This document shows, piece by piece, positions 3,765-13,285 of a stretch of 64,000 nt of DNA. The stretch comes from Bordetella sp. LUAb4 (GTDB lineage: Bacteria; Pseudomonadota; Gammaproteobacteria; Burkholderiales; Burkholderiaceae_B), in NCBI RefSeq assembly GCF_021325795.1, contig NZ_JAHPZX010000001.1, positions 186,001-250,000 on the forward strand, written 5' to 3'. Made by a program: the position numbers and the translations under genes. The notes under the pieces are model-generated. The model did no database searches. It saw nothing but the letters and a program-made list of their open reading frames with translations, and had not been told where the DNA came from. How positions within the stretch are numbered: the first letter of the stretch is position 1; every line of letters starts with the position of its first letter.

Positions 3765-3913
3765 TCTGGTGGGCCATTTATACCGATCCTTTTAGTGGGC
3801 GAGTTTCACCGGCTCCAATCCCCCGCCATTGACACACTCCCCGCCCAGGTCGGAGCCGTCCCACCTGCGGCCCGCCTTTCGAAACCGAACGCCAATCAAC
3901 GCCTTCTACACGA

Positions 3914-3969
3914 TTTCAAAAGAAAACAGCACTAATTGAATCGTCTCCCCTGCGTCCTGCTTCTAGACT
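3914..3969 (+). promoter_or_regulatory. Putative promoter of cassette 1
   Basis: It contains a palindrome-like TTTCAAAAGAAA (3914-3925), TTGAAT (3936-3941) and TAGACT (3964-3969), separated by 22 bases. The leader to the ATG is about 50 bases. The 22-base spacing is too long for ordinary sigma-70 recognition and suggests activator dependence. The assignment rests on conservation across five copies. Confidence 0.55.
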
Positions 3970-4019
3970 AATCACGCAATGGAAGTAGTTCCGTCGACGT
4001 CGAAAATCGAGATCAAATC

Positions 4020-4634
4020 ATGAAAATGCAGCATCTTCGCCAATTGATGCTTGGCTCGGCCCTTTCCTTGCTGCTGAACGCAGCGGCATGGGCGGAGCGC
4101 TCCTATACCGTCAATTTTGCTGTCGATTGGCTTCCGAATGGCTGGGCCGTGCAGATAGGCACTCCTCCGGGGGGGGAGCCCTTCAGCAGTTGCATGACGG
4201 TATGGCAGGTTCCTGACTGGGTTAAACAGATCGCGATCGATCACGACGGCGATGGTGTCGCCTGGCCGGCGTCGCGCGGCGCCCGTTTTTACACCGTACA
4301 AATAACAGACAAGACCATTTTTCCTTGTGGAAACAAGGACAAATACAACACTTGGCCATTCTATATAATTCCATCGCTCTCGGACGGTGGCCAATCGTCA
4401 TCGAACTTCCTCAAAGGGCAAGTGGAATTTCTCCGCCACTTCAACGACAAGACCAAAATGTGGGAAACCTCTGTCTCGGCCAAGAACATCGACGGCAGAA
4501 ACAACCCTCTCTACATGAGTTCTGCCACGTGCGATTCCGGGGCAGGATTTTTGGTGGTTTGCTCAAAGACCCCTGCGACCGGCGACGATGCTGGCAATAA
4601 TATCTGGATTTATTTTAGATATAAGCCAAAGTAG
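4020..4634 (+). CDS. Secreted paralogue A1, family unknown
   Basis: I do not recognise this 204-residue protein. Residues 1-25 form a classical signal peptide ending AAAWA, so it should be exported by Sec. The mature part has four cysteines (58, 103, 171, 181) that are kept in every family member and could form two disulfides. Conserved blocks are CMTVWQVP (58-65), ITDK (95-98), KYNTW (107-111) and a C-terminal IWIYFRYKP. Alternating hydrophobic residues suggest a beta-sandwich, which is inference. This copy departs from the family by having PFSS instead of PNS before the first Cys and by lacking the CLN motif at the last Cys. It lies next to the intact motA. Confidence 0.8.
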   Translation: MKMQHLRQLMLGSALSLLLNAAAWAERSYTVNFAVDWLPNGWAVQIGTPPGGEPFSSCMTVWQVPDWVKQIAIDHDGDGVAWPASRGARFYTVQITDKTIFPCGNKDKYNTWPFYIIPSLSDGGQSSSNFLKGQVEFLRHFNDKTKMWETSVSAKNIDGRNNPLYMSSATCDSGAGFLVVCSKTPATGDDAGNNIWIYFRYKPK

Positions 4635-4687
4635 GTTGGAATGGCCAGCGAGACACGCATCAAATAATTTAAAAGGGCGAACTCAAA

Positions 4688-5269
4688 ATGCTTACCAAAG
4701 ATGCTTTCCGCCTGCTTCTCGGCTTAATACTATGTTCGACTTCTCCATCGCCCGCATGGGCCTCACATGGTTACACGCTTCATATCCTGGCAGACAGCCG
4801 CTACATCGACACTTCCAAATACTACGTGAAAATCTCCCCGCCAGCGGGGAGTCCGCCCAACAGTAAATGCATGCAAACATGGTATACCCCCACCACTGAG
4901 GTCACGCTAGATGCCACGACCACTAGCCTGACTCTCTATATCGAGGATAAAAATAGCACGCCATGTGGCGGCGACCCGAAATACAATACGTGGAACTACA
5001 CGATCAAGTCGCGCAACGATCATAGTTCGGATTACGACCAACAGGTCGCAAAGGGCTCGATCCAGTTCTACCACGCGTATTATGATGATTGGTCCACCGC
5101 GATCATAACCCGTAACTTAGACGGCATACCTCCCAATAGATCTGCCATTGGTTTTGCTACCTGCTATAACAATAAAGTGCAAACCAGCTGCCTAAATAGG
5201 TACGCGACGGGCAAGGATGCTGCCAACGAAATCTATATGTATTTCCGTTGGCCGGTAATCGAGAAATAG
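4688..5269 (+). CDS. Secreted paralogue B1, family unknown
   Basis: This 193-residue partner of A1 starts 53 bases after the A1 stop, behind an AGGGCGA ribosome site. The signal peptide is 25 residues (ending SPAWA). Type B differs from type A in an insertion near the mature N-terminus giving DTSKYYVK, in ending FRWPV plus a short charged tail, and in NLDG instead of NTDG. The four cysteines and KYNTW are kept. The first motif reads CMQTWYTP rather than CMxxWQVP. Function is unknown; co-transcription with A1 is inferred from the spacing. Confidence 0.8.
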   Translation: MLTKDAFRLLLGLILCSTSPSPAWASHGYTLHILADSRYIDTSKYYVKISPPAGSPPNSKCMQTWYTPTTEVTLDATTTSLTLYIEDKNSTPCGGDPKYNTWNYTIKSRNDHSSDYDQQVAKGSIQFYHAYYDDWSTAIITRNLDGIPPNRSAIGFATCYNNKVQTSCLNRYATGKDAANEIYMYFRWPVIEK

Positions 5270-5320
5270 AGCCTCTACTGACTATTCAGGCTCCCAAGCA
5301 CTAGCCCTCCCATAATGATC

Positions 5321-5353
5321 GCGCTCCCGCCGGAAAATATCCCGCGGGGGCGC
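5321..5353 (+). terminator. Hairpin after B1
   Basis: GCGCTCCCGC (5321-5330) pairs with GCGGGGGCGC (5344-5353), including one G-T pair. It matches in form the hairpins after B2 and B5, so it is the degenerate terminator of cassette 1. There is no strong T run. Confidence 0.55.
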
Positions 5354-5417
5354 TTCGCTCCACAGGCATGAAGAATCTCATTCGACGCACGTTTTCAAAA
5401 AACAATTGGCGCGAATT

Positions 5418-5485
5418 GGTCGATGTCGAGCATTTCGGAAGTGGGGGTACTTGCCACATCGTCATGCAGCCGCTATTGGGCGCAT
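5418..5485 (-). pseudogene. Inverted fragment of a type A gene
   Basis: Read on the minus strand, these 68 bases match the A4 gene (about 9347-9415) almost base for base. They cover the segment encoding NSxCMTxWQVPP and EML, with one base missing in a run of C. The fragment is in the opposite orientation to all intact copies and is fused directly to the truncated motA piece. It records an inversion or illegitimate join during growth of the array. Confidence 0.75.
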
Positions 5486-11678: not shown

Positions 11679-11785
11679 CGTCAATTTCCTCGATTATGAC
11701 GTGAGCAGGTTTTTACTGGTTCATTACAGATCTCGATTTCATCGGCTGGCGCCCAGGGAACAACCCGCCCGGCCCGCCGCAACGT

Positions 11786-11836
11786 TCAACCAAATCGACC
11801 GGCAATGTAGTCTTCGGCCGCCTTGGGCCGAGGCTT
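11786..11836 (-). pseudogene. pstB 3' tail remnant upstream of cassette 5
   Basis: The minus strand reads KPRPKAAEDYIAGRFG-stop, against [20 protein letters not shown] at the end of intact pstB. About 16 codons are preserved, followed by a switch into a type A leader at about 11846. It is longer than the remnant at 7490-7527 and has different substitutions. Confidence 0.75.
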
Positions 11837-11874
11837 AAATCGACATCTGCCACAAGATTTCAAAACAGCACCAA

Positions 11875-11908
11875 TTCAATCGTCTCCCGACCCCACCGTC
11901 CCTAGAAT
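11875..11908 (+). promoter_or_regulatory. Putative promoter of cassette 5
   Basis: TTCAAT (11875-11880) and TAGAAT (11903-11908) are separated by 22 bases, as in the other four copies. The upstream palindrome is shortened to TTTCAAAA with the GAAA half lost. Confidence 0.5.
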
Positions 11909-11958
11909 AACTACGTAACAGGGGTAATTTCGCCGATATCAAAAATCTGGGGCAAACA

Positions 11959-12549
11959 ATGAAAATTCCGCGTCTCCGCCAATTAGTGCTTGGGTCTGCG
12001 TTCACCCTCTTGCTGAACGCAGCGGCATGGGCTGATCATACTTATACCGTCAATTTCGCTGTCGATACGCCTCCGAATGACTGGAAAGTCATGATAGGTA
12101 CCCCAAAGGGCTACGCGCCCAACAGCGAATGCATGACGACATGGGCGGTTCCTGACAAGGTCCAATTCATCGGCGTCAATCACGATAACGGCTACGCCGC
12201 GAAACAGCCGGACCGTACGCGCTTTTTCACGGTACAAATCAGAGACAAGGACGTTGGTGGGTGCCAGCGGCAGCCCAAGTACAACACTTGGACGTTCGAT
12301 ATTATTCCCTCAGGCCCGGACGGCTACAGCAAAAGGCTCTCTGGGGAGGTGCAGTTCTACCATTACCTCGATGGCGGTGGCATGTGGATGACCGCCATCA
12401 AGGCCAGGAACACCGATGACAAAAATAATAAGCTTTATGTCAGTTCCGCCATATGTGATCACGGCGTATTCGTTTGGATGGATTGTCTAAATAATTTCGT
12501 GAGCGGTGACTACGCAGCCGAGCAGATCTGGATTAGTTTCAGATATTAA
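11959..12549 (+). CDS. Secreted paralogue A5, family unknown
   Basis: This 196-residue protein is the shortest of type A because it stops at SFRY without the usual KP or NPW end. The signal peptide ends NAAAWA and is close to that of A1. Motifs are PNSECMTTWAVP (Ala instead of Gln), IRDKDVGGC, PKYNTWTFDI, GEVQFYH, RNTDD, AICDHG, MDCLN and AAEQIWISF. It is the first gene after the IS element and pairs with B5, the copy next to the intact pstB. Confidence 0.8.
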   Translation: MKIPRLRQLVLGSAFTLLLNAAAWADHTYTVNFAVDTPPNDWKVMIGTPKGYAPNSECMTTWAVPDKVQFIGVNHDNGYAAKQPDRTRFFTVQIRDKDVGGCQRQPKYNTWTFDIIPSGPDGYSKRLSGEVQFYHYLDGGGMWMTAIKARNTDDKNNKLYVSSAICDHGVFVWMDCLNNFVSGDYAAEQIWISFRY

Positions 12550-12611
12550 TATACACAAGCCCGCATCGACCATTTAGATACGCACCAAACAATTAAAAAG
12601 GTGAATCCAAA

Positions 12612-13205
12612 ATGCTTATCAGAAACGCTGTCCAGTTACTGGGTGGATTATTATTGCTCTCGGCTTTCCAAGCCTCCGCATGGGCCTCACATGATTACAA
12701 GATCAATATCACAACCAGCGGCTTCGATTTATCTCAGTTCTATGTGAAAATTTTGCCGCCAGAGGGATATGCTCCAAACAGTAGCTGCATGCAAACATGG
12801 CAAGTCCCTTCCAAAGAAGTCAGGCTGAATACCGCAACCCCTATGCAAACCGTCACCATCACAGATAAAGATAGCTCCACATGTAGCGGCAATGCGAAAT
12901 ACAACACGTGGAAGTACGAAATCTGGAGGTATCCATTTACCTCGTATCCTTACGAGCGACAGGTGGGACAGGGCTCACTCCAGTTCGTGCACCAGAAGGT
13001 GTATGGTGATTGGACCACCATGATCATACCCCGCAACTTGGACGGCATACCTAGGGGCAGCCCTGCCGTTGGAATGGCCGTGTGCTACAGCAACAAAAAT
13101 GTGGGCAACAATTGCTTGTTAAGAGACGTAAAGGGCAAAGACGCTGCCGATACTATTAATATTTATTTCCGTTGGCCTGTAAATGAGAACTATAGCCTCT
13201 TCTGA
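12612..13205 (+). CDS. Secreted paralogue B5, family unknown
   Basis: The protein has 197 residues with a signal peptide ending ASAWA and AAGGTGA as ribosome site, 62 bases after A5. It lacks three residues in the mature N-terminal loop relative to B1-B3 (SGFDLSQFYVKI). Blocks PNSSCMQTWQVP, ITDKDSSTC, KYNTWKYEIW, GSLQFVH, RNLDG, NCLL and GKDAADTINIYFRWPV are present. It converges with pstB across a shared hairpin. Confidence 0.8.
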   Translation: MLIRNAVQLLGGLLLLSAFQASAWASHDYKINITTSGFDLSQFYVKILPPEGYAPNSSCMQTWQVPSKEVRLNTATPMQTVTITDKDSSTCSGNAKYNTWKYEIWRYPFTSYPYERQVGQGSLQFVHQKVYGDWTTMIIPRNLDGIPRGSPAVGMAVCYSNKNVGNNCLLRDVKGKDAADTINIYFRWPVNENYSLF

Positions 13206-13250
13206 ATATTTAGTGACATAAACGCCTCAGAGGGAACCGCTTTAAAAATG

Positions 13251-13285
13251 ATCGCCCCCGCAGAAAATATTTCTGCGGGGGCGAT
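13251..13285. terminator. Bidirectional terminator between B5 and pstB
   Basis: A perfect 16-bp stem (ATCGCCCCCGCAGAAA at 13251-13266, its complement at 13270-13285) has a 3-base loop, with A- and T-rich flanks on both sides. It serves the B5 transcript and the convergent pst operon. The hairpins after B1 and B2 are related copies. Confidence 0.85.

Follow-up and report, generated by a model that had tools for sequence, protein, structure and literature searches.

Tandem A-B gene pairs of Bordetella sp. LUAb4 encode putatively exported paralogues with a predicted aegerolysin-like fold

What might a bacterium do with ten related genes for putatively exported proteins, arranged in tandem as alternating pairs? 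The question is raised by a 64,000-nucleotide (nt) stretch of the Bordetella sp. LUAb4 genome (contig NZ_JAHPZX010000001.1, positions 186,001 to 250,000; hereafter the window), in which the open reading frame (ORF) listing places ten intact plus-strand ORFs of 193-204 amino acids (aa) between 4020 and 13205. They form five tandem cassettes, each with a type-A gene followed by a type-B gene, so that the ten alternating genes of about 200 codons reported in a preliminary description of this DNA are present, intact, in 5/5 cassettes. We give a probability of roughly 45% to the reading that A and B associate into an exported, aegerolysin-like heterodimer (or higher oligomer) that would bind eukaryotic membranes and help to permeabilise them. 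The genes are the following:

4020-4634, plus strand: A1, type-A exported protein, 204 aa
4688-5269, plus strand: B1, type-B exported protein, 193 aa
6087-6701, plus strand: A2, type A, 204 aa
6755-7336, plus strand: B2, type B, 193 aa
7739-8344, plus strand: A3, type A, 201 aa, source of the A structure model
8396-8989, plus strand: B3, type B, 197 aa from the ATG at 8396; the modelled form has 200 aa from the GTG at 8387
9195-9803, plus strand: A4, type A, 202 aa, the most diverged A
9858-10457, plus strand: B4, type B, 199 aa, the most diverged B
11959-12549, plus strand: A5, type A, 196 aa, lacking the final residues of other A proteins
12612-13205, plus strand: B5, type B, 197 aa

The spacing from A to B is short (53, 53, 42, 54 and 62 nt in cassettes 1 to 5), and 817, 402, 205 and 1501 nt separate successive cassettes. 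The guanine plus cytosine content of the array is 0.525, compared with 0.653 in its left and 0.615 in its right flank. Apart from the ten genes and an insertion-sequence remnant (see below), the ORFs of the array include no further convincing gene; no MACPF profile search of the genome was made.

In the alignment, four cysteines, CMxxW and KYNTW are invariant in all ten proteins, and a six-frame translation of the whole window contains KYNTW exactly ten times, once per array gene. Leaders were called by an AxA pattern rather than by a signal-peptide predictor; the pattern ends at residue 25 in 10/10 proteins, B2 having first matched at 23 and B3, read from its GTG, at 28. Both these shared features and the 25-residue signal peptides had been anticipated in the preliminary description, which also proposed type-specific motifs that in their exact form are not universal: DxSKYYVK occurs in 3/5 and FRWPV in 4/5 B proteins, and IWIYFxYxP in 3/5 A proteins. 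Pairwise identities are 44-58% within A, 42-61% within B and 29-38% between the types. A and B are paralogues, since BLASTP aligned the three cognate pairs tried with E values of 1e-22 to 2e-28; a tree of 14 rows supports the A clade at 100/99 and the B group at just 57/74. Five tandem A-B cassettes, pattern-called leaders and paralogy thus uphold the earlier picture of a paired, amplified and diverged secreted family.

That this family matches none described holds at the level of sequence, although not for the predicted fold: Pfam, NCBIfam, PHROGs, PADLOC and PDB sequences gave no credible match. With HMMER filters that discard most matches above 0.1, the aegerolysin profile PF06355 matched none of the ten array proteins at E ≤ 10 and none of four other family members at E ≤ 1, and the actinoporin profile PF06369 was absent from Pfam scans of 14 family proteins. 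A PF06355 search of six genomes of the genus gave zero matches but is uninformative, its control being likewise silent. Weak rows that we judged due to chance comprise DUF5980 (E 0.028, B5), Glyco_hydro_130 and XYPPX (E 0.055-0.16), two NCBIfam rows (E 0.021 and 0.088), 11 PHROGs of unknown function (best E 0.028) and a cytochrome oxidase of the PDB, whose E value was 0.0079 with a 10-row profile and 0.55 with a 14-row profile. AidA/PixA inclusion proteins were considered and dropped, as no profile matched and the literature on them gave no lead, and anti-phage defence was set aside, as none of the four proteins submitted (of 14 in the family) matched PADLOC. The literature search returned no paper joining aegerolysin with Bordetella, and none on KYNTW, CMQTW or CMTTW.

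Structure models of A3 and B3 predict that A and B have the same aegerolysin/actinoporin-like beta-sandwich fold. Aegerolysins are the best structural matches of both models and stand above lectins in both lists by at least 0.7 Z units; ostreolysin A and AfIP-1A of Alcaligenes faecalis appear in both, and pleurotolysin A, Cry34Ab1 and RahU in A's list only. As modelled, A and B thus share the beta-sandwich of aegerolysins, as well as a two-gene arrangement, and the family is a variation within a known group of folds. The differences are nevertheless clear. Aegerolysins are about 15-17 kDa and of low isoelectric point (pI) (PMC5465095), and those of Aspergillus are described as lacking a leader (PMC9505663). 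In contrast, the mature parts of A and B have 19.1-20.6 kDa and pI 4.9-8.6, and both types combine leaders and four invariant cysteines with the lack of a PF06355 match; only one family member, encoded on contig C13 of the same genome, comes close in these respects, being acidic, about 15 kDa and apparently leaderless. Actinoporins insert an N-terminal helix into the membrane. Such insertion would be unlikely here, because strand 1 of both models starts 1-2 residues past the predicted cleavage site, leaving no room for the helix in the mature chain; A and B also differ from actinoporins in lacking a Pfam match. From fungal fruit-body lectins of the Xerocomus, Agaricus and Sclerotium type, A and B differ in being bacterial, exported, paired and without Pfam match.

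How rare is the family, and in what company are its other members found? The source genome encodes two more, C17 and C13, which brings its total to 12. The C17 member is single and has a leader (locus L011). The C13 member, also single (locus L012), has a core of 136-138 aa with one cysteine (14.9 kDa, pI 4.9), and no leader from the ATG taken as its start, upstream of which the frame remains open. A pattern-based scan of an 84,980-species collection yielded 23 candidate stretches and from these a single relative: in a Rhizobiales isolate, 47 nt separate two members, 166 and 168 aa long, that stand in tandem. Profile searches of overlapping genome samples found members in the source genome only, i.e., in 1/268 genomes of its family, 1/399 of its order, 1/369 of its class and 1/398 of its phylum; within the family of the Rhizobiales genome, that genome itself was again the only one (1/297). 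The order, class and phylum searches scored few candidates in each genome and recovered just 8 or 9 of the source genome's 12 members, and single distant members elsewhere may therefore be missed. No relative was found on plasmids (four queries: B3, A5, the C13 member and one Rhizobiales protein), in phages (two queries: B3 and one Rhizobiales protein) or in viral contigs (three scans). The array is real, and its family is rare among the genomes searched and matches nothing described, as far as sequence goes, in the libraries covered.

By Pfam, the C13 member is flanked by a TcB-like gene (SpvB and TcdB_toxin_mid domains) and a TcA-like gene (TcA_TcB_BD domain), in a Tc-type toxin locus (L016, positions 997000-1016500 of C13; 7-18976 within it). 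We found no other setting that ties the family directly to toxins. The first ORF of that locus (7-5031) looks TcA-like by eye. The C17 copy has as neighbours an ORF of 768 aa that matches no Pfam family (L017, 7142-9448, minus strand) and one whose product matches SUKH-1 (SMI1_KNR4) below the threshold (L017, 10205-10912, minus strand). A FadL-like outer-membrane protein, named by eye, is encoded immediately upstream of the Rhizobiales pair (L013, 8615-9844).

We propose that A and B, paralogous to each other, may be two branches of one rare bacterial family built on an aegerolysin/actinoporin-like beta-sandwich, most likely co-transcribed within a cassette, each exported via a cleavable signal peptide and probably stabilised by two disulfides. 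The two would then assemble into a heterodimer or higher oligomer, bind lipids or glycans on the membranes of eukaryotes, probably invertebrates or protists, and help to permeabilise them, with five diverged cassettes covering a range of targets. The more likely role appears to be that of a membrane-binding platform of the aegerolysin kind, whether or not a further pore former takes part, because the mature chain lacks an N-terminal insertion helix, and because aegerolysins act with a partner and the homologous PUD-1 and PUD-2 heterodimerise. Binding to membranes that contain sphingolipids or sterols is among the marks of aegerolysins, and a need for both components is that of binary toxins, of which the array shows the gene pairing. 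AfIP-1A requires AfIP-1B (PMC5465095), PlyA and PlyB form a 39-mer pore (PMC9505663), and PUD-1/PUD-2 are homologous 17-kDa beta-sandwich proteins in a V-shaped heterodimer (PMC3683130). The parallels are incomplete: AfIP-1B, of 703 aa, belongs to no recognised family (PMC5465095), whereas the neighbour of A is its paralogue, and the Caenorhabditis elegans PUD proteins, found in nematode intestine and hypodermis, match A and B weakly in structure. A more elaborate version, in which exported, obligate paralogue heterodimers with a disulfide-bonded aegerolysin fold were expanded within one bacterial lineage into a five-member arsenal whose promoter-leader blocks were exchanged while the mature target-binding parts diverged, is somewhat unlikely as a whole.

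If the membrane-binding proposal is true, the known range of the aegerolysin/actinoporin-like fold would grow by a family of secreted bacterial proteins missed by sequence profiles, in which the neighbour is a paralogue instead of the larger, unlike partner of known binary systems, and ten natural variants would be available for the study of membrane-target choice. In their predicted shape the proteins resemble membrane-binding toxins known from mushrooms, sea anemones and bacteria that kill insects, and the member in the Tc-type locus would point to eukaryotic, perhaps invertebrate, targets. The earlier guess of a toxin, lectin or binding factor fits this predicted fold as well as the Tc-type genes around one relative.

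A serious rival is a lectin or adhesin role without membrane damage, in which the beta-sandwich would serve attachment to host or competitor glycans, A and B having separate specificities; we regard it as somewhat unlikely, since aegerolysins outrank lectins in both structural lists and one relative lies in a toxin setting. A scheme with A as effector and B as an exported paralogue that antagonises it or serves self-protection would agree with the invariable A-then-B order and close spacing, but leaders and the same predicted fold in both types, together with single-copy members lacking a partner, make such a toxin-inhibitor pair quite improbable. Thaumatin-like or GH64-like proteins that bind or attack carbohydrates are more improbable still, with Z below the aegerolysin rows and root-mean-square deviations of 4.1-5.5 in all rows but one (3gd0, B's list, 3.5).

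How did the array come about? Its left neighbour is a motA-like gene (MotA_ExbB Pfam match) and its right neighbour presumably a PstB-like gene, named from its sequence. The two are adjacent in 3/5 other genomes of the genus, separated by 167-220 bp between aligned ends, without a family member; in the remaining two, the best matches to them lie far apart. Pieces of both flanks recur inside the array; they and the other features besides the ten genes are:

3900-4019, plus strand: A1 upstream block, partly common to all five A genes
5443-5485, minus strand: inverted A-gene fragment, 43 nt, 93% complementary to 9349-9391 in A4
5486-5852, minus strand: copy of the motA-like 5' end and upstream DNA between B1 and A2, 367 bp, 96% to 3412-3778
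7380-7527, plus strand: degenerate copy of the post-B5 stretch into the pstB end, between B2 and A3, 72% to 13244-13383
10612-11684, minus strand: insertion-sequence remnant with integrase core (rve), between B4 and A5
11769-11836, plus strand: degenerate copy of the pstB 3' end before A5, 81% to 13328-13395
13251-13285, listed on the minus strand by the scan: terminator-like 16-bp stem after B5

The core of the 367-bp copy is 93-100% identical by 60-nt block, and the degenerate copy between B2 and A3 includes a terminator-like stem (7391-7422). Because flank pieces recur in this way, the cassettes were duplicated in place after arrival at the site, apparently at different times. The upstream blocks of A2, A3, A4 and A5 end at 6086, 7738, 9194 and 11958. 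A1 and A2 are 90-98% identical, in 60-nt blocks, over some 110 nt of upstream DNA plus the leader, compared with 55-70% for the mature part, and synonymous divergence (dS) is 0.35 in the leader, of just 25 codons, and 1.39 in the mature part. Since leader and upstream block are similar together, local recombination or conversion of the promoter-leader segment is suggested over selection acting on just the leader. The scan scored no sigma-70-like site in the A1 upstream block, and neither such sites (8, with 8.6 expected) nor terminator-like sites (13, with 11.2 expected) exceed chance across the array; the conserved upstream element of A genes was not found near the C17 copy.

Leaders had been described as far better conserved than mature parts, which is so for A in 10/10 pairs (56-92% versus 43-54% aa identity) but not for the ten B pairs (40-64% versus 42-62%). 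Nor does the suggested diversifying selection appear on average: mature-part ratios of nonsynonymous to synonymous divergence (dN/dS) are 0.29-0.53 in 10/10 A pairs and 0.32-0.55 in 9/10 B pairs, the remaining pair being saturated, and purifying selection is therefore dominant on average. Positive selection was rejected with dN/dS below 1 in every computable pair, where dS near saturation leaves room for selected sites or lineages. Congruent divergence of A and B was not borne out either, there being no significant co-divergence (Mantel r 0.43, equalled or beaten by 29/120 permutations). Support for variable blocks as recognition loops is mixed: in the models, the most variable 10-residue block of B (111-120) lies between predicted strands, and of the variable blocks of A, 81-90 and 121-130 overlap predicted loops and 131-140 falls within a predicted strand. 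Elsewhere in the window, a dnaX-looking ORF (44272-46629, minus strand; named by eye) carries a long APVSA-type repeat run mid-gene.
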